Positions 31,177 through 50,923 of a stretch of DNA of 58,130 nucleotides are shown one piece after another (positions within the stretch are counted from its first letter, which is position 1; each line of letters opens with the position of its first letter). The stretch is from a bacterium. GTDB lineage: Bacteria; Latescibacterota; Latescibacteria; Latescibacterales; Latescibacteraceae. Under the pieces are notes generated by a model. It was not told the DNA's origin and did not search any database. It was given only the letters and a program-made list of their open reading frames with translations. The translations under genes and the position numbers were made by a program. The stretch spans positions 1 through 58,130 of the forward strand of contig JAJFUH010000219.1 in NCBI GenBank assembly GCA_021372535.1, written 5' to 3'.

Positions 31177-34100
31177 TCATTTGTTCTGGCGATCCCTGAA
31201 ATACTGATCGCTCCGCCCGAGGATCATGTACATGCTCGGCACGACCACGAGCGTCAGTAAAGTAGCCACCGTAAGCCCGTAAATTACCGCAACCGCCATC
31301 GGCGCCCACCATTGCGACGATGAACCGCCCGCAACGAACCTGAAGGTATGAATGTCGATCGCCCAGCCGGTTGCAAGCGGAATGAGTCCGACAATGGTGG
31401 TGATCGCCGTCAGAAGAACCGGCCTGAACCGGGTCTTTCCGGCCTCGATGACCGCCTCCAGTTTCGACCTTCCCCAGAAACGAAGCTTCATGGTGTAGTC
31501 GAGGAGCACGATGGCGTTGTTGACCACCACACCGGCAAGACTGATGACGCCGACACCGGTCATGATGATACCGAACGGCAGCTGCGAAATCATGAGCCCC
31601 CAGAATACACCGATAAGCGACAATATCACGCTGGTCATGATGATAAACGGCAGCACGAGTGAATCGAACTGGGTCACGAGAACCAGGGCGATGAGAAAAA
31701 TGGCAATAACAAACGCTTTCACGAGGAATTGTCCTGCCTCCTGTGAAGCCTCGTCCTCACCGCGGTATTTTATATCATATCCCGATGGGAGTTTGTAGCT
31801 TGCCAGTTTCGCCTTGACATCGGTAAGAATGTCGTTTGCGAGCCGGCCGTGATTGCTGCCGGTGATAGTGACCACACGTTTGAGGTCAGCACGGCGGATC
31901 GATCCGAAACCCGCGGCAGGCTTGAATTCCGCCACACTTGAAAGCGGAATCTGTTTCCCCTCGTCAAATATGAAAATCTTGTCGAGATCGGGAATCGAGC
32001 TGCGATCCTGTTTTGCGAATCTGACGGTGATATCGTAGTCCTCGTCCTTCTCACGGAAATCTCCGGCATCGAAACCGTTGATCGCATTCCGCACCGCCAG
32101 CGCCACACTCATGGTCGAAATACCGAGCATGGCGGCTTTTTCCCTGTCGACGACAAGACGGATTTCCGGCTTCGAGCTTTCAAAATCATCCTTGAGATCG
32201 ACAAGCCCGGGTATATCCTTGATGGTGTTGCGGATATCCTTGGCGAGGTCCCCCAGGAGGAGGAAATCGTCGCCCGAAATCTGTATTTCGACAGGCTCGC
32301 CGACCGGCGGTCCGTTTTCCTCTTTGTCCAGCTTGACCTCGGCGCCCGTGATGTACTTGATCTTGTTCACCGATTCGTTGAACGTTTTGAGCGAGGGCTG
32401 GCTCCGTTTTTCGAAATCGACAAAATCCATATAAATTCGCCCCTCGTTGGAGGTATCGAAACCGGGTGCAAGCCCGCTGGAACTCGTCGAGACCCCGACA
32501 TTGGTAAGGATGTTCTCAATATCGGGGAATTCGGCGCATGTTTTTTCGAGCTGACGGGCGATTGCATCGGTCGTCTCGATGCGTGTTCCGACAGGTGCTT
32601 TGATATCTATATACATTGAATCGGGGTCCGAATTAGGGAAAAGCTCGACTCCGAGCCCGGCAACACTGTATACACCGATCGTGATAATCAGAATGAGAAA
32701 AGAAATCCCGAGCGTTATTTTTGGGTGTGTAACCGCTCTTGTAAGCAGCCTTTCATACTGACCGAGTACCAGCTTGAACAATCCTTTTCCATTCGAATCC
32801 GTCGCATCGTCCTTCACTTTCATGAACCGGTAACAGAGCACGGGATTGATAAAAATCGCCACAAAGAGTGAGGACAAGAGGGTAATGATAACCGTTATGG
32901 GCAGATATTTCATGAACTCGCCCATGATCCCCGGCCAGAAAATAATCGGGGCAAACGCACATACCGTCGTCAGCGTCGAAGTCGTTACCGCCATCGCCAC
33001 TTCATTGGTCGCCTCTTCCGAACCGCGGAGGGCGTCTTTACCTGTATGACGGTGTCTGTAAATGTTCTCGACAATAACAATGGCGTTGTCGACAAGCATT
33101 CCGAGCGCCATGATGAGACTGAACAGAACGATAAAATTGAGCGAAATCCCCATAAGATCAAGCACGATAAAGGAAATGAGCATACTGAAGGGGATCGAAA
33201 TCGCCACGAATATGGAATTGGTAAAGCCGAGGAAAAGAAATATACAGAGCATAACAAGAATAAAACCGTTGAATATGTTATTCTCGAGATCGGCAACCAT
33301 GACACGGATAAACTTTGACATGTCCCCCTGGACAGTGATATGAGTTCCTTTGGGGAGTGACGGCTCGCGGCGTTTCAGGATTTCCTTCACACCGTCCGCG
33401 ATATGTATGATATTTTCCCCGGTACGTTTGGTTACACTGACGGAAATCGAGGGTTTGCCGTCCAGACGGGCGATCGAGGTACGATCCTTGAAACCGTACT
33501 GAACCTCTGCTATATCACGGATATAAACCGGCCCCTGCGATGTCGCGGTAACGACGAGATCGTTGAACGTGTACGGATTCTTGATCTCACCGGGAACACG
33601 GACCGTGTAGGAGTTGTCACCGATATCGATGTTACCGCCCGGGATGGTTACATGCTCTTCCATTATCGTTTTCGTTATATCGCCGAGCCCTAAATTGTAA
33701 TCTTTGAGCCGTTCGGGATCGACGTTTATCTGTACTTCACGTTCGAGGGCGCCGTTCACCTTCGCTTCGAGCACACCCTGAATGGTCTCGATTTCGTCGG
33801 ACAGATCATCCGCCACTTCCTTGAGCTTGACAAGATCGTAATCGGCGGTGAGCACGACATTGATGATCGGCATGTTTTCAAAATCGATTTCGGTAACCGT
33901 CGGCTCCTCTGCTTCATCGGGAAGATTCGGTTTCGCTTTATCAACCTTGTCCTTGACCCGCTGGAGAGCAAAATCGAGATCAACATCCGGATTGAACTCG
34001 ATGGCAATCACCGAAACGCTCTCCGACGAGTTCGATGTGATTTCCTTGACATCCTTGAGGTTCTTCAGTTCTTTTTCGATCTCTCTCGTAATGAGCGTTT

Positions 34101-34278
34101 CGATATCTTCAGGCGAAACACCCGAATAAATCGTCGTGATGATCATGAACGGTATATTGACATCCGGCGCCGCTTCTCTCGGAAGAGTAAAGTAACTCAC
34201 AAGTCCCATGATCGTAATCAAGACAATAAATACATAAACTGTCGTATATTTACGTAATGCAAACCCAGTCAGCGTCAT
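31177..34278 (-). CDS. RND efflux transporter, inner-membrane pump (AcrB-like)
   Basis: A 1,033-residue RND permease of full length: 12 spans in the usual 1+5+1+5 layout with two large periplasmic loops. Span 4 holds GMLVDNAIVIVEN, where AcrB has Asp407-Asp408; the second Asp is Asn here. Span 10 reads GVVVNNAIVLLDY, where AcrB has Lys940; Asn takes its place. Both changes are common in the MdtBC/CusA-unlike 'VNNAIV' HAE-1 subgroup. The protein exports small molecules with proton-motive force through the adaptor and TolC. Its start overlaps the adaptor's stop (ATGA). Substrate unknown; the TetR regulator suggests a xenobiotic or metabolite inducer. Confidence 0.95.
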   Translation of the reverse strand: MTLTGFALRKYTTVYVFIVLITIMGLVSYFTLPREAAPDVNIPFMIITTIYSGVSPEDIETLITREIEKELKNLKDVKEITSNSSESVSVIAIEFNPDVDLDFALQRVKDKVDKAKPNLPDEAEEPTVTEIDFENMPIINVVLTADYDLVKLKEVADDLSDEIETIQGVLEAKVNGALEREVQINVDPERLKDYNLGLGDITKTIMEEHVTIPGGNIDIGDNSYTVRVPGEIKNPYTFNDLVVTATSQGPVYIRDIAEVQYGFKDRTSIARLDGKPSISVSVTKRTGENIIHIADGVKEILKRREPSLPKGTHITVQGDMSKFIRVMVADLENNIFNGFILVMLCIFLFLGFTNSIFVAISIPFSMLISFIVLDLMGISLNFIVLFSLIMALGMLVDNAIVIVENIYRHRHTGKDALRGSEEATNEVAMAVTTSTLTTVCAFAPIIFWPGIMGEFMKYLPITVIITLLSSLFVAIFINPVLCYRFMKVKDDATDSNGKGLFKLVLGQYERLLTRAVTHPKITLGISFLILIITIGVYSVAGLGVELFPNSDPDSMYIDIKAPVGTRIETTDAIARQLEKTCAEFPDIENILTNVGVSTSSSGLAPGFDTSNEGRIYMDFVDFEKRSQPSLKTFNESVNKIKYITGAEVKLDKEENGPPVGEPVEIQISGDDFLLLGDLAKDIRNTIKDIPGLVDLKDDFESSKPEIRLVVDREKAAMLGISTMSVALAVRNAINGFDAGDFREKDEDYDITVRFAKQDRSSIPDLDKIFIFDEGKQIPLSSVAEFKPAAGFGSIRRADLKRVVTITGSNHGRLANDILTDVKAKLASYKLPSGYDIKYRGEDEASQEAGQFLVKAFVIAIFLIALVLVTQFDSLVLPFIIMTSVILSLIGVFWGLMISQLPFGIIMTGVGVISLAGVVVNNAIVLLDYTMKLRFWGRSKLEAVIEAGKTRFRPVLLTAITTIVGLIPLATGWAIDIHTFRFVAGGSSSQWWAPMAVAVIYGLTVATLLTLVVVPSMYMILGRSDQYFRDRQNK

Positions 34279-35357
34279 TGTCCGGTACCCTCCCTGCCAG
34301 CAGCAGTGTACTCACCCGTAATATTGATTTTTTCGCCTTCAACGAGATCGTGCTGGCCTTTAACTATTACGCGGTCACCGGAAAAAATCCCCGAAAGTAT
34401 CATAACATCGGTCGTACCCGCGGGTCCCATTTCAACCGAGCGCTTCTCGGCGGTATTGTCATTCCGGGCAACATACACGATACGGCCGTTCTGGGTTTCG
34501 ATCAAAGCATTGATGGGAATCATGAGTGAATCATTATAGACCATCCTCAGGATTGAAGCATTCCCCATGATACCGGCCCTGATAAGACCCTCACGGTTGT
34601 CGACGACGATCTCGGCCTGAAAGGTTCTCACCGAGGAGTTGGCTTCCGGGGCAATATAGTTGATCTTACCCCTGAAAACCTTTCCGGGGATAGCATCGAG
34701 CTTGACCTCGACATCGTTGCCGACCTTGAAATCGGTGATATATTTCTCCGGAATCCCGGCCTGCACTTTAACACGGCTTATGTCGATAATCCTGAAAGCG
34801 GGAGTTCCGGGACCGAGAATATCGCCAACTTCGACATGCCGCTGGGTTATCACACCATCGAAGGGAGCCTCGAGCACCGCATCCTCAAGCTGTTTTTTGG
34901 AAATTTCAAACGCGCTTTGCGCCTGGGAAAGCTGAAGTTTCGTGGCATCATGGACAGCTTCGGTGATACTCCCGTCCTTGAACAGCTTTTCGCTCCGGGC
35001 AGATTCCTTCTCCTGATATTCGAGATTTGCCTGCGCAACATTGAACTGCGCCTTGAGCATCACATCGTCGGTTTCAAGCAGGACCATATTCTGCTTTACC
35101 CGGTCACCTTTATCGGCATGCAGTTTAACAACCTTGCCTCCGCCCGTGATACCGAGATTCACTTCCTTGTTCGGTAAAACGACAACGGGAAGATTGATAT
35201 AATCCCTGAACTGCGAGGGTTTGACCGTGAAAATCTCGACATTGGTAATTTTTTCCGGATCAGCCTGACTGTCGGCTTCCTGCTTTTTCCCGCAGCCGGC
35301 AGCGGCAATCACGAGTAATAAAAGCACCAGCGCTTTTTTTACAATGTTTTTCATCAT
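34275..35357 (-). CDS. RND periplasmic adaptor lipoprotein (MFP)
   Basis: A 360-residue membrane fusion protein. The signal peptide ends in the lipobox AAAGC (Cys about residue 22), so it is anchored to the inner membrane. The body follows the HlyD/AcrA order: barrel-sandwich half (ITGGGKVVKLHADKGDRV), alpha-hairpin with coiled coil (about 95-165), second lipoyl half with EAPFDGVITQRHVEVGD, beta-barrel, then the membrane-proximal domain. It couples the RND pump to the TolC-like channel encoded upstream. AAAGGAAA precedes the ATG pair at the start. Translationally coupled to the pump gene. Confidence 0.94.
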   Translation of the reverse strand: MMKNIVKKALVLLLLVIAAAGCGKKQEADSQADPEKITNVEIFTVKPSQFRDYINLPVVVLPNKEVNLGITGGGKVVKLHADKGDRVKQNMVLLETDDVMLKAQFNVAQANLEYQEKESARSEKLFKDGSITEAVHDATKLQLSQAQSAFEISKKQLEDAVLEAPFDGVITQRHVEVGDILGPGTPAFRIIDISRVKVQAGIPEKYITDFKVGNDVEVKLDAIPGKVFRGKINYIAPEANSSVRTFQAEIVVDNREGLIRAGIMGNASILRMVYNDSLMIPINALIETQNGRIVYVARNDNTAEKRSVEMGPAGTTDVMILSGIFSGDRVIVKGQHDLVEGEKINITGEYTAAGREGTGQ

Positions 35358-35369
35358 GCGTTTCCTTTC

Positions 35370-36722
35370 TTACAGGTCGGTATCTAGAATCCCGAGATTC
35401 TTCTTAAGGGCTATTTCTGCGATTGTTCCTTCATAGAGCGAAACCACCATGTTTGTCTTTGCCACCTCGAGCGCCAGCTGTGCATCGAGTACTTCGAGCT
35501 GGGTCGCCTTACCGTTCGTATAGAGCGATTCGGCCATCTCAAGCGCTTTCTGCGCTTCCTCCACATTCATACGCTGGCTTTCTATACTGTTTACCGCCTT
35601 GCGCAGATTGAGAACGCTCTCACGGACATCTATGAGAACAGTATCATGTATTTTTTTGAAATCGGTCTTCGCCTTGTAGAAATCGTTTTTTGCCTGCCTG
35701 TATTTTGAATAATTCTTGAATCCGTCGAAAATCGGAAATGTAAGGGTGACACTTGCTGTCCAGTACCTGTTCCAGTCCTCCCGGTCATAGGTGAAAACAT
35801 CGAAATTACCGTTATAGGCAAAGTTTGATCCTGCCGAGAGAACGGGCAGAAAATCACCCTTGGCAAGTTGTATGCCCTTTTCGTAAAGGTCCACATTGTA
35901 TTCGCTCGCCTTGAGGTCGGGCCGCATCTCCATGGCAGTTTCGAACGTGGCCTGCTTGAAAACCGACGTATCGGGCTCGGCAAACTTCCCCGTGATGGTC
36001 AACGGCGAATCGGGCGCAACACCCATGACCTCCTTGAGCCTGAGCAGTGAAATCGTCACCTTGTTTTCGGCATCGAGAAGATCGGGTTTCATGTTTGCAA
36101 CCTGCACACGGGCCCGGAGAAGGTCATAGTCGGTCGCCCGCCCCGCATTGAAAAGGTTCTTCACATTTTCGAGGTGTTTTTCCGCCTGTGCGAGCGATTC
36201 TTTGTTTATGGAACACATTTCCTCAGACAGGAGCGCGGAATTAAAGGCCTGAACAACTCCCGCAACCACATTCTGCCTGACAGACTGGAGCGTCTCTTCG
36301 GCCATGTTTTTATAGATTTTTGCCGCTTTGAGCGCGGTGCCGACCTTCCCGCCCACATAGATCGGCTGGGTAAGGCTCGCTCCGAGACTCATCGTGTTGT
36401 CGGTTCCTACCTTGAGACGGTTCTTTACGAGCACACCGTTACTGTCGGGAAAGGATATAACAAAAACCATTGGCTTGAGATTCCGCTCGTAATTCCAACT
36501 CCCGTTGATCTGCGGATAAGCAGCCGATGCCGCCTCGGTAATGCGGTTATTGGCCTTGGAAGCTTCTTCCCCGGCATTGATGACATCTTTATTTTTTTCA
36601 AGCGCAATTTTGACCGCACGTTCAACGGACAGGTCCATGTAACTCTCCGACTGTGCCCATCCAGCCTCCGGAATAACAACCGAACACAGGATTAAAGCGT
36701 ACAACAGCATTTTATCGATCAC
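35370..36722 (-). CDS. TolC-like outer-membrane efflux protein
   Basis: A 450-residue outer-membrane factor with a cleavable signal peptide (ending about AGWAQ at residue 24) and two OEP repeats rich in long coiled coils. 'A...N..V..A......A.N.I..A.SAAYPQI' opens the first repeat, and the second ends with a typical NGKATQLEVLDAQLAL segment. It forms the trimeric channel of the tripartite pump. The GTG at 36722 has AGGAGG 6 bases upstream and lies inside the tetR 3' end (11-base overlap). An ATG at 36710 is a second possibility. Twelve bases separate it from the adaptor gene. Confidence 0.93.
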   Translation of the reverse strand: MIDKMLLYALILCSVVIPEAGWAQSESYMDLSVERAVKIALEKNKDVINAGEEASKANNRITEAASAAYPQINGSWNYERNLKPMVFVISFPDSNGVLVKNRLKVGTDNTMSLGASLTQPIYVGGKVGTALKAAKIYKNMAEETLQSVRQNVVAGVVQAFNSALLSEEMCSINKESLAQAEKHLENVKNLFNAGRATDYDLLRARVQVANMKPDLLDAENKVTISLLRLKEVMGVAPDSPLTITGKFAEPDTSVFKQATFETAMEMRPDLKASEYNVDLYEKGIQLAKGDFLPVLSAGSNFAYNGNFDVFTYDREDWNRYWTASVTLTFPIFDGFKNYSKYRQAKNDFYKAKTDFKKIHDTVLIDVRESVLNLRKAVNSIESQRMNVEEAQKALEMAESLYTNGKATQLEVLDAQLALEVAKTNMVVSLYEGTIAEIALKKNLGILDTDL

Positions 36723-37392
36723 TGACTACCTCCTCCCTCGCTGCTATTCCGTTGAGCAGGATATCGGCGAAAATCCGTGATACCTTTTCTATATCCTTGG
36801 AATTTTTACACTTGTAACTACATATGGAAAACAAACCGTTCAGGGCAACAAATATCGCTTCCAGGAGGGCGTCGGGCGGATATTCCTTCAATTGCTTATC
36901 TGAGATTGCCCGTGTAAAACGATCCATCATCCACCGGTTACCCTGATTGATAATTACGTGGAGTTCCTTTCCTTTTTCATCGGACAATCCAATGAAACCC
37001 ATAGATCGCTGAATCTCAAGCACCTTGACAAGATCGGGGTTCGAAAACGCGAATTTCGCCGCTCCCACGAGGAAATCGACCAGCTCCTCCGTAAAAGGTT
37101 TTTTCCCCGAAAACGCCACCGAAAAAGCACTGTTCCGACTGAAAATTACCGTCTTCATGATACTGAAGAGAAGGTCTTCCTTGCTTGAAAAGTAGTTGTA
37201 CAACGAAGCCTTCGAAAACTCGGCTTCCTGCGCAACCTCATCGAGCGTCGCGTGGAAATACCCTTTCCGCGCAAAAACACGGGTCGCCGCCGCCAGAATT
37301 TCCAGACGGTGGGTTTCCTTTTCGCGTTCTCTGCGTGGAAGCGTTTCATCAGTCTGCTCGAAAGGGTAATACAGATAATCAAATTTGTTCAT
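36712..37392 (-). CDS. TetR/AcrR-family repressor of the efflux operon
   Basis: A 226-residue TetR regulator. The N-terminal helix-turn-helix, preceded by a basic RREREKETHRLEILAAATRVF helix, includes GYFHATLDEVAQEAEFSKASLYNYFSSKED broken over residues about 35-65, a classic TetR signature. The ligand-binding C-terminal domain has no recognisable effector family. I chose the ATG at 37390-37392, with GGAG about 6 bases upstream. It heads the TolC-adaptor-RND operon and probably represses it from the dyads at 37445-37473 until an efflux substrate binds. Confidence 0.92.
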   Translation of the reverse strand: MNKFDYLYYPFEQTDETLPRREREKETHRLEILAAATRVFARKGYFHATLDEVAQEAEFSKASLYNYFSSKEDLLFSIMKTVIFSRNSAFSVAFSGKKPFTEELVDFLVGAAKFAFSNPDLVKVLEIQRSMGFIGLSDEKGKELHVIINQGNRWMMDRFTRAISDKQLKEYPPDALLEAIFVALNGLFSICSYKCKNSKDIEKVSRIFADILLNGIAAREEVVSDR

Positions 37393-37444
37393 GGCGCCTC
37401 CGTAAACTTCATTTTTAGTATATTGACACAGCATATTATTAATG

Positions 37445-37473
37445 ACTAATTAGTAAATTACTGACCAGTCAGT
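37445..37473. promoter_or_regulatory. Candidate TetR operators upstream of the efflux operon
   Basis: Two perfect dyads lie 53-81 bases before the tetR start: ACTAATTAGT (37445-37454) and ACTGAC-CA-GTCAGT (37460-37473). The second has 6-bp arms around a 2-base centre, a usual TetR-family operator layout. On the minus strand TTTACT followed by TATGCT with about 16-base spacing lies across the same region. Repression by the adjacent TetR is the natural inference. Confidence 0.6.
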
Positions 37474-37662
37474 CATAATATATACAGGGCAGTTTTTGAA
37501 TGCAAGCGTTTTTTTCACTCATTGATTTTTCACGGTTTTTTTACTATGTTTTAATAGCGTGGTCAAACCTTTGGCCTCTTTTTCAGTATCGTAATACACA
37601 GTATATACCGCCGCACGAGATTCTTTATTCAATCATAATTACCAATAGAAAGGTATTACATC

Positions 37663-38748
37663 ATGGAGACAAAATCGTTCAGGGGAATGAAGTGCCGAAG
37701 AATGGGTAATTCCGGGCTCTGGGTTTCGGAAGCAGGCCTCGGAACATGGAAGTGGGGCGATCCGAGCTATGATGGCTCCCGTGTGGGGGATCACGAGGGC
37801 TTCGACATCCTCGACCGTGCCCTCGAACTCGGGATCATCCACTGGGACACGGCTAATTCGTACAACCTCGCTTCGGGAAATTCGGAGCGCCTGCTCGGCC
37901 GTTACTTTGCGCGGCGCCCTGCTTCGGTTCGTGACATGGTCGTGCTTGCAACGAAGATTTCCAACTCGGCTCGCGAGGAACACGAGATGAAACGCGATTT
38001 CTCCCCCCATGAACGCGGCGCTTCGCGGAAGTATATCATGCGCGAGACGGAGCGCTGTCTCGAACGGCTCCAGACCGACCGAATCGACATTCTCTATGTG
38101 CATCAGCCATCGCTTATGGCGGACGGTTCGTGGGAGGCGCCCCTCGATGAGACCTGGGCAGCGATGGATGACCTCGTGAGCATGGGCATGGTCAACTATC
38201 TCGCCGTCTCCAACCGTACAGCGGCGCAGATCGGGGAGGAGATGGATGTCCTCCGTTCGGTTGCATCGAATTCATCGAGACGGATTATCGCGGTGCAGAA
38301 CTGGTACAACCTCGCTGAACGCATAAAAGTGGCGACCGAAGGCGAGGACCGCACGGGGGGCGACGAGTCGGCATTCCTTAAATTCGTGGCGGAAAAGCAT
38401 ATCGGGCTCGTTCCGTTCTTCCCTCTTGCGAGCGGACTTCTGACCGGGCGGTACCGGAAAGGGAACATGGACGAATCGGGACGGATAATCAAGGATGGCG
38501 ATTACTGGAAGAATCTCTTCCTCACCGAGCGTAATCTCAGGCTTGTCGAAGGGCTTGCCCCGATTGCAGAACGCAAGGAGTGCTCGATGGCGCAGCTTGC
38601 GATCGCATGGCTCCTGTCTCATAATGTTGTCTCCTCCGTCATAGCGGGCGTCACCCGTATGAGCCAGCTCGAGGACAATGCAGGCGCCGTCAAGGTCGAG
38701 CTTACCCCGGACGATCTGGAGGAGATTGACAGAATAACCGCGCCGTAA
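37663..38748 (+). CDS. Aldo/keto reductase
   Basis: A 361-residue AKR with the (beta/alpha)8 signature. The catalytic tetrad can be traced: Asp and Tyr in HWDTANSYNLASG, Lys in VLATKISN and His in DILYVHQPS. NADPH-binding sequence near the C-terminus (VIAGVTRMSQLEDN) is also typical. Relatives of the YghZ/oxidoreductase group reduce aldehydes or ketones; the substrate is not evident. AAAGG precedes the start. It is a single gene between the efflux operon and the propeller genes, divergent from tetR, so sharing the operator region is conceivable though nearly 190 bases separate them. Confidence 0.93.
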   Translation: METKSFRGMKCRRMGNSGLWVSEAGLGTWKWGDPSYDGSRVGDHEGFDILDRALELGIIHWDTANSYNLASGNSERLLGRYFARRPASVRDMVVLATKISNSAREEHEMKRDFSPHERGASRKYIMRETERCLERLQTDRIDILYVHQPSLMADGSWEAPLDETWAAMDDLVSMGMVNYLAVSNRTAAQIGEEMDVLRSVASNSSRRIIAVQNWYNLAERIKVATEGEDRTGGDESAFLKFVAEKHIGLVPFFPLASGLLTGRYRKGNMDESGRIIKDGDYWKNLFLTERNLRLVEGLAPIAERKECSMAQLAIAWLLSHNVVSSVIAGVTRMSQLEDNAGAVKVELTPDDLEEIDRITAP

Positions 38749-41471: not shown

Positions 41472-42749
41472 TTACTTTACATAGAGCATTTTATGCGTCG
41501 CCGCATTTCCTCCGGCCGTCAGTTTCAGAACATACTGTCCCGAAACGATCGCCCTGCCGGTGTCGTCCACCCCGTTCCATGCAATCCGGTGAATTCCGGG
41601 ATCGACAGTATCCGAAAGAAGCACCCGTATCTTCTGGCCAAGAATGTTATACACTTCGAGACGCGTGTCTACCGCAATATCCGCCGAAAAGAGTACTGTT
41701 GTCACACCGTTGAACGGATTCGGATAATTACCGATCAGGGTGAATTCATGCGGTTTCATGGATCCGGCGCCGTCCGGATTCATTAAGGCGCCAGGATCGA
41801 AATCGATGGAGCAGACTTTCGACAGTACATTTCCTTCATTTTCCAAAAGAAGGATATACCAGACACTCTTTCCGTCGGGCGCCCATGCCGGCTCGATTCC
41901 GTGGAATGTCCCGTCGTTTCCGACAAGCGGATAGTATTCACGGGATTCAACGCTGTAAACCATAAGCTCCGGCCTGTATTTTTTACCATCTTCCTCTTCC
42001 GGAATTATGCTCGTGTGGGTAAAAAGCAGCCATGAACCGTCCGGCGAATACATCGGAGAATCGGTATACCCTTCCGTGAACGCCGTTACAGGTTCACGGT
42101 CGCCGGAAACGAGGTCAACGCGGTACAGATTGACCGGATTATTCGGGCCGGTTTCCTCTACATTGATTACAACATGCGAGTTGTCGGGGCTTATACAGTA
42201 AGGAACGCTGAAATACCAGTAACCTCCCAGCTCTTCGGTGGAAAGCACCACCCTTTTCGTCTCGTTTTCCCTGTCGTACAGTTTCAATGCCCAGACGCCG
42301 TACATGATTTCCTCGAAATACATAAAATAGCCGCCGTCACTGCTCCATCTGCCGTCTGTTGCATTTTCTTCGACAATAGTATGCTCTCCCGATTCTATAC
42401 TCACCGACTCGATGACAAAACGACCCGGTTTTTCCACATCCATGGTATTGGATCGGGTAAAAATTATCTCACGGTCATCGTGTGAAAAGCTCGTATACGT
42501 CAGCTCTTCGCTCACACTGTCACTCATGACGAGCCTGTATGGCAGCAACCCGTTGAAGGTCGCAATCCATATTCCGTCGCTGGCAGTGACCGCAAGCATG
42601 TTTCCCTCATGAGACCATGCCAGTTCACGGAGCGTGCGGTTTCCGCCGTCGAGTTCACCGCTTAGATTTATCTCTTTCCCCCCGGCCGTACACAGCCCGA
42701 CAAAAGCGAACACGATAAGTGTCAATCCAATGCTTCTTATGGTTTTCAT
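41472..42749 (-). CDS. Secreted single TolB-like beta-propeller protein with FlgD/T9SS-type tail
   Basis: A 425-residue exported protein with a signal peptide ending about residue 22 (FVGLCTA). It has a single propeller module (about 25-335) with blades such as WSHEGNMLAVTASDGIWIA and MYSPDGSWLLFTHTS. A C-terminal FlgD-like domain starts GNYPNPFN and ends HKMLYVK. The propeller aligns with the N-terminal half (P1) of the 800-residue neighbour: compare SHEGNMLAV..SDGIWI with SHNGKMTAV..TGIWII. AGGGAA lies about 8 bases before the start. It follows the BlaR1-like gene by 93 bases on the same strand and may belong to its regulon. Confidence 0.82.
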   Translation of the reverse strand: MKTIRSIGLTLIVFAFVGLCTAGGKEINLSGELDGGNRTLRELAWSHEGNMLAVTASDGIWIATFNGLLPYRLVMSDSVSEELTYTSFSHDDREIIFTRSNTMDVEKPGRFVIESVSIESGEHTIVEENATDGRWSSDGGYFMYFEEIMYGVWALKLYDRENETKRVVLSTEELGGYWYFSVPYCISPDNSHVVINVEETGPNNPVNLYRVDLVSGDREPVTAFTEGYTDSPMYSPDGSWLLFTHTSIIPEEEDGKKYRPELMVYSVESREYYPLVGNDGTFHGIEPAWAPDGKSVWYILLLENEGNVLSKVCSIDFDPGALMNPDGAGSMKPHEFTLIGNYPNPFNGVTTVLFSADIAVDTRLEVYNILGQKIRVLLSDTVDPGIHRIAWNGVDDTGRAIVSGQYVLKLTAGGNAATHKMLYVK

Positions 42750-42842: not shown

Positions 42843-45800
42843 TTACTTCACGAGCGCCATTCTGTGCGTTTTCATCCTGGAACCCATTCTGAGACGGGCG
42901 ATATAGGTTCCCGACGCCGCGCGCTGCCTGTTGTCGTTGTTCCCGTCCCATTGCACTTTATACAGTCCGGCTCGTTTAGGCTCTTCGACCAGTGTGCGAA
43001 TACGCTGACCCGTTATGTTGAAGACTTCCACGGTTACAGGGCCGTCTGTATCGAGCACGAATTCAATGGTGGTGCTCATGTTGAACGGATTCGGATAGTT
43101 TCCTTTCAGTGCAAACTCAAGCGGCATGATCTCATCGGTGTTTACCGGCTTTTCAGAGCCGCTCCCCGAAAATTCCCCTATATACAGGTGACAATCGTAC
43201 TTTTTATATTCGTCGTTTTCCCAGTTTTTGAGGAGATGATAGCAGAACCCGGTCCCGTCGGGCAAAAAGTTGCCCATCGCCGCGAATACGAAATTTTCGG
43301 TAGGATAGAAGTCCCTGATATCGCCATTCTCAAGGTTGACAGCCCTGAACCAGGTGTCCTTTTCGTACGGCAGAGTGCTGTCGTAGACAAGACTCATGAC
43401 CCATTTACCGTCGGGAGTACAGCTCGGCTGATGCCAGTACCCTTCCATGGTCAGCTGCTCGCTCTCTCCGCCTTCGAATGGAATTCTGAAAAGCTGGGGA
43501 TTGTCCGAGTAATTTTCAACATAAATGACATGCGAGCCGGACGGAGTTACAGAGGGCGAATGAGCGTTTTCCGCCAGCATCCGCTCTTTTCCCGTCACTG
43601 TATCGAGCACCATGATACAGGATAACGTTATGGTTTCTGTCTGCCGGTCACCGGTTGCTCCGGTTCTGGTTCTGGTATAAATGAAAAACCGTCCGTCCGG
43701 ATGCCAGCACCCGCTGCTCGCTTCCTCGGCAATTGTCCGGCATGCCCCGGTTTCAAGATTCACGCTCCTGATAACCGGTATATACCCCGAAGTCGAGCGG
43801 AGATGGCCGGATTCGTCTACAAGTGCCCTCGATCCCCGGGATTCATCGTACAGTTCATCGCGAAACGTTATTTCTTTCCCGTCGGGAGTAAAACAGATAG
43901 GTTGTTTGTGCTGACCGCGAACCGTGTATTCAAATCCGTGTTCCTCCGATTTTAGCAGCTTGGTGTCCGAATAGGCGAGAGACGGCTTGTAATCCTTCAC
44001 AGGAAGCGTCCATATCCCGCACCCTGACCAGTCGGTAAATGCGATAACCGAACCATCAGGCGACAGTACAGGATATTTCTGGCCTCTGCTGAGATACCAT
44101 TCGAGCTCGTCACGGGCGGTGAGGTCGTTGGTGTATTCATACTGCTTTTTATCCCATCTGGTGATGACATTCACTTTCCCCGGTTCGATTGTCGTATTCG
44201 ATTCATAATCATAACCGATAAGGCTGTATCCGGGATCGTGTATTTCAAAATCCGTCAGTACCAAGTCCGGTTCACCGCCGGTCAATTCCGGTTCCAAAAC
44301 CACCTGTTCGATGCTGCTCTTATCGCCCGGGCGAAAATCCTGAGGAAGCTGTATTCTCAGAGCGCTTTTATCGGAGTTCGATACATCGGCCGACCGATTA
44401 TCCGGTTTCGGGCGTCCCGATTCTTTTCTGTCCGTCCCTGTTTCAACTATCGCCCGCGCACCACCGGTATCGGTCCCGGCTGTTTCCGCAATCTTACCTG
44501 TTACCTTGATTTCCGCATTGGTATCAAGGTTCTCTGAATGCGAATCCTCATTGAAATCTATAGCGGATATGATTTTCCTGCTCTCTATAACTGAGACAGG
44601 CGACGGTTCGGATGGCGTGCCCTGTTCTGCGGGTATGTCCCCGGACTCTGTGATCGTACGGGAAACAATCTCCGAATCATTGCCGGCATCGGACAGCACC
44701 GTCCGGTCATCGGCAGGATGGGTATATTGCGGCTGCTGTTCTCCCTTTATCCGCAGCTCTTTCATCGTGTAGTCGGGGTTTTCGGAAGCCTGGCTCTCGG
44801 TGATCATGGGTTTCCCCTTTATACCGATAAGACCACCGAAGAAAGACGAGATAAGCGAAAGGGAGGAAATAAGCACGAGCACGAGCGTACTCACCCGCAG
44901 GTACAGCCGCCGCGACCGGTCAAGAATCCTGAGAATACGGCGCTGCAGGGAGGATTTGAACGATATGAATCCTACACCAGCCGCCCTTTCAGGACGGGAT
45001 ACCTGAAAGCTCTCGGCAATATGGGCAAGGCTGTAGGCGTACGATTTATGGCTTTTCCCGTGATTCAGCACAAAATCGTCGCACACATAATCACTCATCT
45101 CTTCTATCCAGTGTGAGAGTACCCACAAGAGCGGCTGAAACGGGAGCAGGGCGGTTGCGATCTGCCTGAGCTGGTTCCACAGAGGATCCCGTCTCTTCAG
45201 ATGCGAAAGCTCATGGTAAAAAACATCCTCCATGGGAATGGTGGAATCGAAATCATGTACGGGCATGATGATGACAGGACTCAACACACCGGTCAGCAGC
45301 GGTGTTTTCGTGAGTGGAGACCGTAAAACTTGCGGCGGTGCAATGCCGAGCTCGCCCGATACAGCCCTGCACAGGTCACTGTGGGATGTCTTTGCCTGAA
45401 AGGCTGAACGGCGTATATACTGGATGTACAGGTTCGCTCCGAGCAGCCTGACCAGAAGGAAAAACGTCCACGCAAACCATGCAAGCGTGCCTGCGATATA
45501 GAGGCCTGCCAGCATTCTCGTCTTCGTCGCTCGTACCGGTGCTGTCGGACCGGCGCCGCTTTCTGCTGTTCTCTCAGGGTTGTCCTGAACGGCATGGAGT
45601 CCGGTTCGCTGGCTGAGTTGGGGTGTGCCGGGAGAATTCGACTGCGGCGCCGAAGAAACGGGTTTGTCGGTACGCTTTTCACCGCGCTGTGTTTCCGCAG
45701 ATTGTTCAGGGGAAGCGATGACAGTTTCCGGCGCTGTACTGTTGACAATCCCGGTGTCACGGTTGTATTCCCGGCGTTGTTCCCGGGATTGCTTCAGGGG

Positions 45801-46136
45801 GTTTTCTTCGGGACGGGAGGGCATATCCCCGACTGTGCGGAGCGCCGCAGACGAGTCTTTTTTCAGCGCATTACCCGGTATGCGCGGAATATACACCGTC
45901 ACCTCGAGGATTCCCGCTTTTTTCAGGATGAATGACACCGGCGGACCCAGAAACACCGCGATGAGGAAAATCCTCAGAATGATCGATTGAAGGGCGGCTC
46001 CCCTTTTTCTCAAACCATAGGCTGCTCCCAAACCGACTGACAGAATAACGGTGGACTGTATCAACAGGTATATACCGATCGAAACGGTTCCATTTGCAAC
46101 ACCGGGCAGCCATTCAACCAATCGGGTTCCCCACAT
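42843..46136 (-). CDS. BlaR1/MecR1-type M56 metalloprotease fused to TolB-like propeller and FlgD/T9SS-type tail
   Basis: A 1,097-residue fusion. Membrane spans lie near 18-40, 50-70, 208-233 and 413-440. The M56 zinc protease domain has HELSH at 308-312, with a downstream EEMSDYVCDD (345-354) supplying the third ligand. A low-complexity linker (about 440-600) leads to a TolB-like propeller (about 600-1000), then a FlgD-type domain from NYPNPFN (1013-1019) to the last residue. Canonical BlaR1 ends in a penicillin-binding sensor; none is present here. The propeller aligns with P2 of the 800-residue neighbour. A 135-residue polar loop between spans 2 and 3 is also unusually long. It starts 2 bases after blaI and should cleave or inactivate BlaI when the propeller senses its cue. 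Confidence 0.85.
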   Translation of the reverse strand: MWGTRLVEWLPGVANGTVSIGIYLLIQSTVILSVGLGAAYGLRKRGAALQSIILRIFLIAVFLGPPVSFILKKAGILEVTVYIPRIPGNALKKDSSAALRTVGDMPSRPEENPLKQSREQRREYNRDTGIVNSTAPETVIASPEQSAETQRGEKRTDKPVSSAPQSNSPGTPQLSQRTGLHAVQDNPERTAESGAGPTAPVRATKTRMLAGLYIAGTLAWFAWTFFLLVRLLGANLYIQYIRRSAFQAKTSHSDLCRAVSGELGIAPPQVLRSPLTKTPLLTGVLSPVIIMPVHDFDSTIPMEDVFYHELSHLKRRDPLWNQLRQIATALLPFQPLLWVLSHWIEEMSDYVCDDFVLNHGKSHKSYAYSLAHIAESFQVSRPERAAGVGFISFKSSLQRRILRILDRSRRLYLRVSTLVLVLISSLSLISSFFGGLIGIKGKPMITESQASENPDYTMKELRIKGEQQPQYTHPADDRTVLSDAGNDSEIVSRTITESGDIPAEQGTPSEPSPVSVIESRKIISAIDFNEDSHSENLDTNAEIKVTGKIAETAGTDTGGARAIVETGTDRKESGRPKPDNRSADVSNSDKSALRIQLPQDFRPGDKSSIEQVVLEPELTGGEPDLVLTDFEIHDPGYSLIGYDYESNTTIEPGKVNVITRWDKKQYEYTNDLTARDELEWYLSRGQKYPVLSPDGSVIAFTDWSGCGIWTLPVKDYKPSLAYSDTKLLKSEEHGFEYTVRGQHKQPICFTPDGKEITFRDELYDESRGSRALVDESGHLRSTSGYIPVIRSVNLETGACRTIAEEASSGCWHPDGRFFIYTRTRTGATGDRQTETITLSCIMVLDTVTGKERMLAENAHSPSVTPSGSHVIYVENYSDNPQLFRIPFEGGESEQLTMEGYWHQPSCTPDGKWVMSLVYDSTLPYEKDTWFRAVNLENGDIRDFYPTENFVFAAMGNFLPDGTGFCYHLLKNWENDEYKKYDCHLYIGEFSGSGSEKPVNTDEIMPLEFALKGNYPNPFNMSTTIEFVLDTDGPVTVEVFNITGQRIRTLVEEPKRAGLYKVQWDGNNDNRQRAASGTYIARLRMGSRMKTHRMALVK

Positions 46137-46138
46137 GG

Positions 46139-46516
46139 CTATTTCTCCTCTTTATCACCGTCCAGCATCTCGAATATCTTTTCAAGCTCTTTCCGGGAAA
46201 CGGATTTGTTCCTGACAAGCGATGAAACCAGATTCGCCACCGACCCGCCGAACACGGTATCGATCAATTCCCGGATACCATTGTTGATGACCTTTTTTTC
46301 CATTATTAACGGGTAGTAGATATGAGTCCTGTCCTGTATATCGTAGCCGATGGCGCCTTTTTTCTCCAGCGCCCTGATGAGAAGTTGAACGTTGTTGTGC
46401 GCAACAGGCTCGATCTCGTTGAGCGCTTTTGAGATTTCACGGGCGGTTGCGTGTTTTTTCTCCCATAGAATCTGCATGATCATCAGCTGGATTCTTCCCA
46501 ATTGTACGTCTGTCAT
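46139..46516 (-). CDS. blaI: BlaI/MecI/CopY-family repressor (paired with BlaR1-like fusion)
   Basis: A 125-residue winged-helix repressor. The N-terminal domain reads QLMIMQILWEKKHATAREISKAL, and the recognition-helix region is VAHNNVQLLIRALEKKGAIGY. The C-terminal third is the dimerisation region, within which BlaI proteins are cleaved by BlaR1. It lies 2 bases upstream of the M56 fusion gene and should control the operon from its own promoter. A near-consensus promoter and a perfect 10-bp dyad lie 37-85 bases upstream. There is no beta-lactamase gene nearby. Confidence 0.9.
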   Translation of the reverse strand: MTDVQLGRIQLMIMQILWEKKHATAREISKALNEIEPVAHNNVQLLIRALEKKGAIGYDIQDRTHIYYPLIMEKKVINNGIRELIDTVFGGSVANLVSSLVRNKSVSRKELEKIFEMLDGDKEEK

Positions 46517-46552
46517 GTCGTTTCTCCCGGATATGTTTTGATTACCAGTTTA

Positions 46553-46581
46553 AATTTACTGTACTACGTTATTTCTGTCAA
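46553..46581 (-). promoter_or_regulatory. Sigma70 promoter of the blaI operon
   Basis: On the minus strand TTGACA (46576-46581) is followed 17 bases later by TAAATT (46553-46558). The spacing is optimal and the -35 matches consensus. It lies 37 bases upstream of the blaI ATG. Confidence 0.7.
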
Positions 46582-47016: not shown

Positions 47017-48942
47017 CTATTCCTCAACATCGGGATAGAGCTCGTCGGCGCGGGCAAGGAGCTTCTCTCCGGCCTCGAAAGCCCGCTCCAGTATCTGCAT
47101 CTGCTCCTGCGCCAGCCCGGCGGCATCCTGCACCATGCTGACAGCGGATTCGACGGATACGGTGATGTCCTTCATACTGTCGCGGCTTTTATCGATGAGC
47201 TTCACGAGCTTCTGGGCGGCTGTGACGGTTGCCGAGGCCTTTTCGAGAACGGCGGGCACATCGCTGTCTGATGTTTCGGAAATCTCCTCCAGTATCCCGG
47301 TCATGGCATCGGCGCTGTCCCGCCACCTGACATCGTCGCCGCTCGATATGATGCCGAGGGTTTCATGGCGAAGAGAATCGGAATACTCCTCGAGCGTTTT
47401 CACCGTGCCCGCTATCCGGACAGCGATGGCGTCGAGATGCCCGGGAATGGAGGCAAATCCGGAACCGTGCTGTCCTGCACGGGTAACCTCGAGCGCGCTG
47501 TGCAGCGATATGCTGTCGAGCCTGGCCGCGCATACCGCCCAGGCGTTCGCAATCCGCAGGATGGACTGAGCCTTACGGTCGAAGGCCTGCATATCCCGGA
47601 TAAAAGTACGGGTATCCTCATGAAGCAGCCCGATTTCGCCCGTTATCCCCTTGAGGGCGGTTTTCGATTCACCGATGGTTCCCCGCAGCTCTTCGAGCTT
47701 CTTCCTGATTTTTCCCGATGCATCCAGGATATCGGCGGCGTTACGGGCCATTATACCGAGCCGCTCACCGGTGTTTTCGACAATCCGCTCCATGCTCTCC
47801 ATTTCACTGGCCGCTTCGGCAAGTTTATCGTCCGCGGACTGGAGCTCGTCACCGGTATCCTCGGTAACTCCCATGAAATCATCGGCGATGTTCATGATCT
47901 CGTCCAGCAGGTCGGGGATATTTTCCCCGGCGGCGAGCTGCGAAACAGCAGCGGATATTTTCCCTGCCTGTTCCAGCGCCGGAGCGAATGCGTTTTCACG
48001 GATTTCGAAGGCTGTTATGGCAACATCAGTCAGCCCTGCCGCACGGTCGATTGTATCGAGAACAGGCCCGTTGCAGGGAAGTGCGCTTTCATCGTCCGCA
48101 AAGGAATCGAGCGCATTGTCGGTCACGGTTCCGGACAATCCCGCCAGCTCCGTAAGTTCAGTGCGCACATCTGAATACGCGTTTCTTACTCCCTTCACCA
48201 TAACCAGAATCGTCCGGATTCTGTCACCGAGACCTTTCTGTTTTTCAGCGAGTTCCTGCACGTCTGTTTTAAGGTCTCCAAAGAAAACACCTGATTCCTC
48301 GGCATTTTTTTCACATACGGCCGATGCCTGACGGATACGGCCTGTGATGACGGTAAATTCTCCGCTGTGTCCGCCCGAACGGTCCGCTTCGAGAGAAGCG
48401 TTGAGTCCGGCAACATCCAGAAGACCAGCGATTCCTGTAATATCCTCTATGATTCCGCTTGCTTTATCCTCGAGTTTCGCAAGATTTTCCAGCCGTTTCT
48501 GAGTGGAGCTCTGGGCCTGTGCGGCGCCATTGATTTCATCGATGATATCCGATAGAAAGCCGGAATCCTCTTCGAAAAAACGTCCCAGAAAATCAACCGA
48601 GGCAAAGATTTCGGAAACATCCCTGTACATCTCCCCCGAGCTTTCGTCGAGCGTTTCGGAGAGATGCCCCGCCGACCGTATTTCGGTTTTCATGGAATCA
48701 AGGGCTTTCCTGCCGGTATCGAGAGATTTTTTTATCCTGTCCGTCAGGCCTGCGAAATCTTCGATTGCGGAAGAGACTTCCGCGCTGAGAGAAGCGATCT
48801 GCCCTGCCTTCCGGAGCTGCCGGGCGAGAGCACGGTCGCGGGTTTTTCCCTCCGCGGCTTTGTTGATGACCGTGTTTTCTCCCCCGGAAGCCGTGGAAGC
48901 GGCATCCGCTTTTTTATCTGTATTCGCCAAACCTTTTTTCAT
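47017..48942 (-). CDS. Soluble chemoreceptor-like protein with two degenerate signalling-tip segments
   Basis: A 641-residue, almost wholly helical acidic protein with no membrane span, HAMP or sensor domain. Two segments resemble the methyl-accepting chemotaxis hairpin tip ('LNA.IEA.RAGE.G.GF.VVA.EIR.LA'). Tip 1 is near residues 167-208 (LNASLEADRSGGHSGEFTVI) and tip 2 near 461-510 (LHSALEVTRAGQHGSGFASI). Both have lost the usual QTN before the first helix turn. Long heptad-rich arms join and follow them. I chose the ATG at 48940-48942, with AAAGGA 8 bases upstream. No CheA/CheW gene is nearby. It may be a cytoplasmic scaffold or degenerate signal transducer. Confidence 0.7.
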   Translation of the reverse strand: MKKGLANTDKKADAASTASGGENTVINKAAEGKTRDRALARQLRKAGQIASLSAEVSSAIEDFAGLTDRIKKSLDTGRKALDSMKTEIRSAGHLSETLDESSGEMYRDVSEIFASVDFLGRFFEEDSGFLSDIIDEINGAAQAQSSTQKRLENLAKLEDKASGIIEDITGIAGLLDVAGLNASLEADRSGGHSGEFTVITGRIRQASAVCEKNAEESGVFFGDLKTDVQELAEKQKGLGDRIRTILVMVKGVRNAYSDVRTELTELAGLSGTVTDNALDSFADDESALPCNGPVLDTIDRAAGLTDVAITAFEIRENAFAPALEQAGKISAAVSQLAAGENIPDLLDEIMNIADDFMGVTEDTGDELQSADDKLAEAASEMESMERIVENTGERLGIMARNAADILDASGKIRKKLEELRGTIGESKTALKGITGEIGLLHEDTRTFIRDMQAFDRKAQSILRIANAWAVCAARLDSISLHSALEVTRAGQHGSGFASIPGHLDAIAVRIAGTVKTLEEYSDSLRHETLGIISSGDDVRWRDSADAMTGILEEISETSDSDVPAVLEKASATVTAAQKLVKLIDKSRDSMKDITVSVESAVSMVQDAAGLAQEQMQILERAFEAGEKLLARADELYPDVEE

Positions 48943-49083
48943 CGTTCGGTCCTTTCTGCAATACCGACAGTCATAAACAGGATGTATATACACCCTCTTT
49001 TGCGCCTCCAGATGCCGCCGTTATCATTACCGTATTTCTACGGTTTTCGTCATATATGGGATTTCCCCCGGCGTACAGGGTTA

Positions 49084-49746: not shown

Positions 49747-50154
49747 ATGGCTGCTCGTCGAAGATCACGGACATTCACCGAAGTCGAGCTTGAGTTCATG
49801 AACATTGTCTGGGAACTCGGGGAAGCAACTTCGGAACAGGTCCGGTCGGCTCTCCGCGACAAGGGAACGGAGCTTACGGACGGTTCCGTGCGCAAGGTGC
49901 TTTCAATCCTCGAGGCCAAGGGGCATATCGAACGCCATCGTGAGGGAAGAGGATTCATATACAGCGCTATTGTGCACCGGACGGATGCGAACCGTTCCAT
50001 GGTAATGGACCTTCTCGGGCGGGCGTTTGATGGCTCGGCATTGCTATTGGTAGCTTCGCTCCTCGACAGCCGTAATATTTCATCCGATGACATGGAAAAA
50101 ATCGAAAAGCTGATCGCCGAACATAAAAAGAAAAACCTCATACAGCCTGTATAA
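49747..50154 (+). CDS. Orphan BlaI/MecI/CopY-family repressor
   Basis: A 135-residue winged-helix repressor. FTEVELEFMNIVWELGEATSEQ begins helix 1 and 2, and TDGSVRKVLSILEAKGHIERH is the recognition-helix and wing region. The C-terminal dimerisation part follows. Unlike the other copy it has no M56 protease gene beside it; another protease would have to release it, or it responds to a different cue. GGGGGAGG precedes the start. The first gene downstream (bacterioferritin) has its own promoter, so its regulon beyond itself is unknown. Confidence 0.88.
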   Translation: MAARRRSRTFTEVELEFMNIVWELGEATSEQVRSALRDKGTELTDGSVRKVLSILEAKGHIERHREGRGFIYSAIVHRTDANRSMVMDLLGRAFDGSALLLVASLLDSRNISSDDMEKIEKLIAEHKKKNLIQPV

Positions 50155-50219: not shown

Positions 50220-50365
50220 TTTATTATCATGTGATATAATTCCGAAAAGATGTTTACCTGAATGTATATAAAGTTCGGCCGCACACAGGTAACAGAAATA
50301 TCTGTTTTCGGGAATCGATAGTGCGAAGTACAGTTAAATTCTTTCGAGAATCCGGAGGTCCCCCT

Positions 50366-50923
50366 ATGGCACAGAGTACAAAAGAACTGCGCAGAAGAAA
50401 GGTCATCGAAGTCCTCAACAAGGCCCGCGCCATGGAACTGCAGGCAATCACACAGTACATGAACCAGCACTACAATCTGGACGACATGGATTACGGCGAT
50501 ATGGCGGCGAAGATCAAGCTCATTGCGGTCGATGAAATGCGCCATGCGGAGATGTTCGCCGAACGGATCAAAGAGCTCGGAGGCGAGCCGACCATCGATC
50601 CGACAGCAAAAGCAGTAAAAGGCCAGGAAATCCGGACTGTCTTCGCTTTTGACGCCCAGCTCGAGGACGACACGATCGACACGTACAACCAGTACCTGCT
50701 CGTATGCAGGGAGAACGGCGACAGCACGAGCCTGAAAATCTTCGAAGCGGTCATCGACGAAGAACAGATACACTTCAACTACTTCGACAATGTGAACGAC
50801 CACATCGAGAAGCTTGGCGAGACCTACCTCGCCCAGATCGCCGGGACACCGTCCGCCACCGGCCTGCAGACACTGGGCTTCGTCGCCCGTCAGGGATCGG
50901 GAGCTCCACAGGGCGGCGCGTGA
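50366..50923 (+). CDS. bfr: Bacterioferritin
   Basis: A 185-residue ferritin-fold iron-storage protein. Diiron ligands can be traced by the bacterioferritin spacing: Glu24, Glu57 and His60 (in DEMRH), Glu100, Glu133 and His136 (DEEQIH). Met58 sits where E. coli bacterioferritin has the haem-binding Met52. It stores iron as a mineral and oxidises Fe(II) at the ferroxidase site. The start has GGAGG 7 bases upstream; a longer reading has no such site. The family is usually about 155-160 residues; the extra 25-residue Gly/Ala/Gln-rich tail is not part of the fold. Confidence 0.93.
   Translation: MAQSTKELRRRKVIEVLNKARAMELQAITQYMNQHYNLDDMDYGDMAAKIKLIAVDEMRHAEMFAERIKELGGEPTIDPTAKAVKGQEIRTVFAFDAQLEDDTIDTYNQYLLVCRENGDSTSLKIFEAVIDEEQIHFNYFDNVNDHIEKLGETYLAQIAGTPSATGLQTLGFVARQGSGAPQGGA

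Follow-up and report, generated by a model that had tools for sequence, protein, structure and literature searches.

What does a BlaI-type repressor respond to when the membrane protease encoded beside it bears, in place of a penicillin-binding domain, a beta-propeller and a secretion tail? This question is raised by a locus in the 58,130-nt stretch of DNA analyzed here (the window; contig JAJFUH010000219.1 of assembly GCA_021372535.1, a member of the Latescibacteraceae, phylum Latescibacterota), in which blaI is followed by a gene for a 1,097-aa protein, hereafter the sensor, that joins an M56 protease to a TolB-like propeller and a C-terminal tail of the kind used by the type IX secretion system (T9SS). 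In the classical case of BlaR1, the sensor domain is related to class D beta-lactamases and BlaI is cleaved directly (PMC9834060). We found that the order blaI, sensor, secreted propeller-tail protein recurs in the window genome and three relatives, and that the ectodomain of the window sensor is kin to a secreted product of its own operon. From these sequence relationships, it appears probable that the locus encodes a BlaR1-like BlaI/M56 induction circuit whose ectodomain is akin to a module of the product, such that sensor and product meet the same thing.

Architecture of the blaI-sensor pair

The blaI gene is intact and ends 2 bp before the ATG of the sensor gene (Table 1). Its product matched Pfam Penicillinase_R over residues 6-119 of 125 (85.5 bits, cut-off 22.6), S. 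aureus BlaI (1sd4) with a phmmer E value of 1.9e-9 and the CopY_TcrY and BlaI models of NCBIfam, although it fell below the curated NCBIfam cut-offs of all specific models (best BlaI/MecI score 49.7 bits versus 180). Hydropathy analysis of the sensor revealed four transmembrane (TM) segments (18-36, 52-70, 211-229 and 419-437), and Peptidase_M56 matched residues 202-402 (E 2.5e-20; 73.3 bits, cut-off 31). The C-terminal half contained PD40 propeller repeats (Pfam), a TolB propeller match at 787-913 (NCBIfam), Pfam FlgD_ig at 1022-1078 and the type A sorting domain TIGR04183 at 1014-1093 (33.0 bits, cut-off 23). No penicillin-binding (class D beta-lactamase-like) domain was found at the C terminus, where the blaR1_generic model did not reach, as it aligned to the protease part only (52.1 bits, cut-off 400). 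Neither a beta-lactamase domain nor a linked PBP2a gene was detected among 25 window proteins scanned with Pfam, which included all operon genes but not every gene of the window. A preliminary description of this DNA had placed blaI 2 bases from an M56 gene, recognized a propeller and an NYPNPFN tail where a penicillin sensor would be expected, and reported no beta-lactamase nearby; coordinates and domain searches agreed with all three, the last for the 25 scanned proteins.

An AlphaFold2 model of the sensor, built with the 12 full-length family members, was confident for the membrane/protease part, the propeller and the tail, and showed disorder at 445-649 and in most of 94-202. The ectodomain modelled alone had a mean predicted local distance difference test (pLDDT) score of 81 and 26 strands in the propeller region, which suggested some six or seven blades. 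Structurally, it was closest to TolB proteins (Foldseek E 1.7e-12), with 13-15% identity over the structural alignment, and a profile comparison likewise matched TolB (E 1e-21). Foldseek matches listed for the full-length model covered the propeller only and thus have no bearing on the protease. A known sensor of the penicillin-binding protein type hidden in the propeller region, which the preliminary description had allowed for, was rejected, since both sequence and fold searches returned TolB-type propellers.

Table 1. Features of the blaI-sensor locus, with positions in the window unless another locus is named
Feature	Sensor residues	Position	Strand	Basis or remark
blaI, BlaI/MecI-type winged-helix repressor, 125 aa		46139..46516	-	Pfam Penicillinase_R, E 4.4e-24
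Sensor gene, M56 protease + propeller + T9SS-type tail, 1,097 aa		42843..46136	-	Pfam, NCBIfam, 11 other full-length homologues
TM1 + TM2	15-75	45912..46094	-	Hydropathy; AlphaFold2 helices 3-41, 47-73
Low-complexity TM2-TM3 loop, at the place of BlaR1 extracellular loop 1 (EL1)	80-205	45522..45899	-	Conservation 0.24; mostly pLDDT <50
TM3, cytoplasmic M56 protease core, TM4	206-440	44817..45521	-	Pfam M56; alignment to BlaR1 (8exp), E 3.7e-17
HELSH zinc-binding motif	308-312	45201..45215	-	H, E, H invariant in 12/12
D349, counterpart of the zinc ligand E242 in BlaR1	349	45090..45092	-	Alignment to 8exp
Disordered linker, TM4 to propeller	445-649	44190..44804	-	pLDDT <50 throughout
TolB-like (PD40) propeller	685-990	43167..44084	-	Pfam, NCBIfam, sequence and fold searches
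FlgD-Ig / T9SS type A sorting tail (NYPNPFN ... K)	1005-1097	42846..43124	-	TIGR04183
Secreted propeller-tail protein, 425 aa, signal-like N-terminus		41472..42749	-	Pfam, NCBIfam, hydropathy; L141 orthologue 60% identical
Secreted two-propeller + tail protein, 800 aa		38820..41222	-	C-terminal half 39% identical to sensor ectodomain
Sigma70-type promoter TTGACA ... TAAATTTA		46551..46581	-	65 nt upstream of blaI; presumed BlaI repression site
Same promoter pattern before stand-alone Reg_prop genes		L225:2390-2536 (C196), L226:2110-2185 (C206)		In G000

Recurrence of the operon and kinship of its propellers

The window genome (G000; 5.35 Mb, 236 contigs) contained 13 M56 genes, five of which encode M56 + propeller + tail proteins (the window sensor, C152, C75, C88 and C59); a sixth member of the subfamily, C218 (locus L018), carries tetratricopeptide repeats (TPRs) in place of the propeller and tail. 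At all six loci blaI precedes the sensor gene, and the next gene encodes a secreted tail protein whose propeller is of the PD40 or Reg_prop type. The preliminary description had mentioned neither these six operons, nor the secreted proteins encoded downstream of the window sensor, nor the T9SS components described below. The same arrangement was observed in three genomes of the same family, namely G001 (L139, L140, L141 and L145, together with fragments L146 and L147 and the TPR form L148), G002 (L143) and G003 (L142 and L144), which brought the full-length members to 12 in four genomes, 5 in G000 and 7 in its relatives. Of the 13 cases in which the contig continues past the sensor, 12 had a propeller protein of the secreted kind encoded next, and only L148 did not; in L143 this gene leaves its contig before the tail. 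These gene calls were based on longest open reading frames and profiles built from the family, with a Pfam check on 18 proteins; contig searches with the single sensor protein gave no match, and those with the family alignment mostly found tails. Twelve full-length proteins of one architecture at independent loci in four genomes, four of these loci elsewhere in G000, also leave next to no probability that the 1,097-aa reading, as the preliminary description had considered, arose when assembly or gene calling wrongly fused two genes, one for an M56 protease and one for a propeller-tail protein, even though the genome is a draft and the C-terminal half of the sensor is 39% identical to a neighbouring gene.

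Both the 425-aa and the 800-aa proteins are encoded downstream of the sensor on the same strand, and have signal-like N-termini as judged by hydropathy only. Sensor residues 653-1097 shared 39% identity over 448 aa with the C-terminal half of the 800-aa protein, and this identity, along with the common domains, indicates that the sensor ectodomain is of the same make as the secreted products of the operon. Phylogenetic analysis of 32 propellers united the window sensor with the C-terminal propeller of the 800-aa protein and with the orthologous pair of L141 (100/99), and likewise the L145 sensor with the product of its next gene (100/99); in these three operons, the sensor propeller and a secreted propeller of the same operon are nearest relatives. 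A single clade of sensor propellers was rejected (p-AU 6e-56).

Compared with the orthologous operon L141, identity was 73% for the propeller, 72% for the tail and 60% for the secreted proteins, and 47% for BlaI and 43% for M56 (close to the medians between paralogues, 43 and 41). The window BlaI and M56 sequences grouped with L140 (95/96), whereas the ectodomain and secreted proteins grouped with L141; a clade of the window and L141 for BlaI + M56 was not rejected (p 0.135). Thus, the front module (BlaI + M56) may either have been swapped between operons or have evolved much faster, and the case for a swap is suggestive. The pair L017/L139 (BlaI, M56, propeller and tail identities of 66, 56, 71 and 71) leans towards exchange of the front module, although the topology test above (p 0.135) leaves both readings standing. 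At L140 in G001 (L140:4027-7448, minus strand), blaI is preceded on its own strand by genes for secreted Reg_prop-tail and PD40-tail proteins, of which the PD40-tail one has its nearest relative in the sensor propeller of a different operon (L016).

Active site of the protease

In the alignment to the BlaR1 structure (8exp), each of the 12 full-length members retained the counterparts of H201, E202, H205, D210, D246, Y261 and R294 unchanged, among them the general base, Glu309 of the sensor. The BlaR1 autocleavage site S283/F284 aligned to G389/F390, a conserved small/hydrophobic pair, and the cleavage site of S. aureus BlaI aligned to S99/L100 of the window BlaI. However, the third zinc ligand differed: gluzincins have a Glu at this position (E242 in the ExxxD motif of BlaR1), whereas the sensor has D349. 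The statement in the preliminary description that the M56 protease is complete, with HELSH at 308-312, therefore holds for the motif and the domain, with the word complete to be qualified by this Asp. Asp was found in 15 of 16 subfamily members (the other has Glu, with its remaining catalytic residues unchanged), and Glu in 85 of 85 other M56 proteins collected, which makes the Asp ligand a clean sequence signature of the subfamily.

This substitution might mean that the M56 domain is not an active protease and that the sensor regulates BlaI by binding or simply anchors the propeller to the membrane. We consider this improbable, as Asp can coordinate zinc, one member retains Glu with the rest of the site unchanged, and an inactive enzyme should have lost further residues, whereas all other catalytic residues are invariant here.

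Promoter and possible regulon

All 17 subfamily operons carried a CTTGACA element 64-117 nt upstream of blaI, compared with a mean of 0.7 and a maximum of 3 for TTGACA in shuffled sequences, and the promoter of the window operon is presumably the site of BlaI repression. The pattern TTGACA-N13-19-TAAATTTA had eight matches in G000 and one in the reversed control, although four of the eight stand before the subfamily blaI genes that had served to devise it. Two of the remaining four lie before the stand-alone Reg_prop proteins C196 and C206, the latter with a tail; both are candidate distant members and provide a lead towards a wider regulon. Within the upstream regions, TTTACNNNNGTAAA occurred exactly in 3 of 17 (0.02 expected, for a motif devised from these same sequences) and is only a lead to a possible BlaI operator.

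A proposed circuit

Taken with the domain organization, these observations lead us to favour the following scheme. At rest, BlaI would repress the strong promoter directly upstream of blaI, and the membrane protease would hold its propeller-tail ectodomain on the outer side of the inner membrane. The signal at the ectodomain could be whatever the secreted propellers bind, or it could be the export machinery taking hold of the tail; it would activate the M56 protease and lead to inactivation of BlaI, and the induced operon would then supply more sensor and more secreted propeller-tail protein. The preliminary description had proposed the propeller as the ligand domain and a glycan, a peptide or a surface polymer as the cue, and these stay candidates. 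The gene order that recurs at six G000 loci and in three related genomes argues for this circuit, as do the invariant catalytic residues and the small/hydrophobic pair at the autocleavage position, the kinship of sensor and secreted propellers, the CTTGACA element before blaI, the SprA and PorV genes and the parallel with BlaR1.

Several observations weigh against it. First, the match between sensor and secreted propellers was not seen in every operon: it was weak in L014, L015 and L144, and L016-L018 and L142 have Reg_prop partners. Second, the Asp ligand may impair or alter catalysis. Third, the sensor domain of BlaR1 lies close to the membrane and affects EL1 and TM3 when it shifts (PMC9834060), and the flexible linker of about 200 aa in the predicted structure makes such a rigid sensor-to-EL1 coupling unlikely here, so that signalling would need the TM2-TM3 loop, tethering or removal of the ectodomain. 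The linker was 168-239 aa long in all 12 full-length members. Elsewhere, linkers measured 174-353 aa in M56-tail proteins of another family and 33-53 aa in tail-less M56-propeller proteins, a comparison that is confounded by phylogeny and has an exception in L021 (10 aa with a tail). The L021 protein (L021:7411-8775; C38 of G000) is a 454-aa M56 protease whose T9SS-type tail begins about 10 aa past the last membrane helix, with neither linker nor propeller, and is topologically odder than the window sensor.

The sorting tail and type IX secretion

Within the sensor, conservation was highest in the tail (mean majority fraction 0.65, versus 0.60 for the protease, 0.46 for the propeller and 0.26 for the linker), which ended in Lys in all 12 full-length members. 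G000 encodes SprA (E 2e-145) and PorV (E 9e-76), so the tail is a plausible working T9SS signal; a search for GldM gave no match in G000, using a model for which there was no positive control. No cleavable N-terminal signal peptide was found on the sensor, which begins with the TM helices of the M56 part. A T9SS-type tail on an inner-membrane protein had been called a topological puzzle in the preliminary description, and two candidate answers can be offered: the tail may meet the T9SS from the periplasmic side, or the ectodomain may be exported while tethered by the linker of about 200 aa.

In a rival explanation, the tail mimics cargo and the sensor, instead of an external ligand, reads whether the T9SS (PorV/SprA) is free or jammed, tuning the output of tail-bearing cargo. 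Several C-terminal domains (CTDs) of P. gingivalis are binding partners of PorV, and PorA, itself a CTD protein, feeds the PorXY-SigP control of the T9SS (PMC7712824), which is a precedent by analogy for a CTD protein in T9SS regulation. Strong conservation of the tail with its cargo-like final Lys, the tail-bearing cargo encoded in the operons and the presence of SprA and PorV would also fit such surveillance. Yet the paralogue C218, with TPRs and no tail, sits in the same kind of operon, and the match of sensor propellers to the secreted propellers of their own operon would be left unexplained. We therefore regard surveillance of export as doubtful.

It is also conceivable that the sensor is a plain periplasmic ligand sensor, whose tail is an Ig-like fold with no T9SS role that was carried along when a propeller-tail protein fused to M56. 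FlgD_ig and T9SS tails share one fold and both models match here, and tail-less M56-propeller proteins that could be simple sensors exist in the phylum (L197 and L179-L184). However, a passenger should drift, whereas this tail has changed less than the propeller and still ends at exactly the same C-terminus, which leaves this explanation rather unlikely. According to the second answer, the T9SS would recognize the ectodomain and carry it, still tethered, to the outer membrane or surface, where it would sample what the co-encoded secreted propellers meet, or report export, and signal back through the tether. Such a trans-envelope sensor has a small chance in our judgment.

Distribution of M56 fusions

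Other M56 ectodomains in Latescibacterota were also varied. The L179-L184 proteins of one family have Reg_prop propellers with further domains, L197 of G054 has PD40 and no tail, and L199 and L201 have a tail but no recognized propeller. No inspected M56 protein elsewhere in the phylum (64 species) combined M56, PD40 and the tail. Among the matches listed for 80 genomes of Krumholzibacteriota (the phylum of G069) and 82 of KSB1 (the phylum of G067), none spanned M56 and a propeller; as these searches scored about 10 candidates per genome and only the best were listed, M56-propeller fusions are likely absent from these two groups. We found no description of an M56 protease fused to a propeller, or of a T9SS in Latescibacterota, among the open-access papers searched.

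Two of these cases deserve a brief record. The proteins of L179 (L179:11010-15032) and L180-L184 are blaI-linked M56 proteins of about 1,340 aa, with a Reg_prop propeller, carboxypeptidase-regulatory domains and a C-terminal thioredoxin/AhpC-like domain. In the M56-tail protein of L201 (L201:8974-10794), the region that separates the protease from the tail weakly matches ExbD/TolR (E 3e-4).

Other features of the window

Directly upstream of the blaI operon, on the same strand, lies a gene for a 658-aa protein with a methyl-accepting-type signalling domain (47017-48993, minus strand). A second BlaI-type repressor (49747-50154, plus strand) has no adjoining M56 gene and is followed on the same strand by a ferritin-like gene (50321-50923); it is a BlaI-family orphan, possibly in control of iron or oxidative-stress functions. 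A complete resistance-nodulation-division efflux operon (31177-38748, minus strand) encodes a TetR regulator, an outer-membrane factor, an adaptor and an AcrB-type pump, with an aldo-keto reductase gene adjoining on the plus strand. Positions 4442-30249 hold a cluster of the surface-polysaccharide type, with genes for an asparagine synthase, a carbamoyltransferase, a DegT aminotransferase, an LPG-synthase-type membrane protein, an ABC transporter with a Wzt_C domain, a glycosyltransferase and a UDP-GlcNAc 2-epimerase.

Implications and comparison with known systems

If the proposed circuit is correct, regulated proteolysis by BlaI and M56 would be a general chassis, used outside antibiotic resistance, in which the ectodomain can be replaced by kin of the proteins under control; here it would be tied to type IX cargo, in a phylum that has seen hardly any experimental work. 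The presence of several paralogous circuits per genome means that the logic of matched sensors and partners, and a possible exchange of front modules, can be tested by comparison. The tail raises the question of whether the T9SS can have an inner-membrane protein as its client, or as a reporter of its activity.

Among characterized systems, BlaR1-BlaI and MecR1-MecI of S. aureus and B. licheniformis are similar in having blaI beside a four-TM M56 protease with HExxH and the equivalents of D210, D246, Y261 and R294, and in having an extracytoplasmic C-terminal sensor domain akin to the product under control. In contrast, the window sensor has a propeller and a T9SS tail, no penicillin-binding domain and no linked beta-lactamase in the scanned proteins, and differs further in its Asp zinc ligand, its disordered linker of about 200 aa, its loop of about 125 aa at the EL1 position and the Gram-negative-type envelope. 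CopY/TcrY-BlaI repressors resemble the window BlaI, which matches the CopY_TcrY, BlaI and Penicillinase_R models, but the latter is paired with an M56 protease rather than with metal sensing. As in T9SS type A proteins and PorA of P. gingivalis, which relays a signal and binds PorV (PMC7712824), the C-terminal sorting tail is complete; unlike in the PorA-PorXY-SigP pathway, it sits on an inner-membrane protease that would itself be the transducer, in an operon with neither a two-component system nor a sigma factor. TolB shares the propeller fold, although the window propeller is attached to M56 and a tail, with no Tol-Pal neighbours among the scanned window genes. The closest relatives in arrangement are other Latescibacterota M56 fusions (M56-Reg_prop, M56-PD40 and M56-tail), which also form blaI-M56 pairs with propeller or tail C-termini; those inspected lack the combination of M56, PD40 and tail and have Glu as the third ligand, and their propeller forms have linkers of 33-53 aa. 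Judged by its sequence, the window pair belongs to the BlaI and M56 families at the family level and is not BlaR1, though it would work like BlaR1; the distinct zinc-ligand signature, the tailed propeller ectodomain and the matched secreted partners predicted here are what is new.

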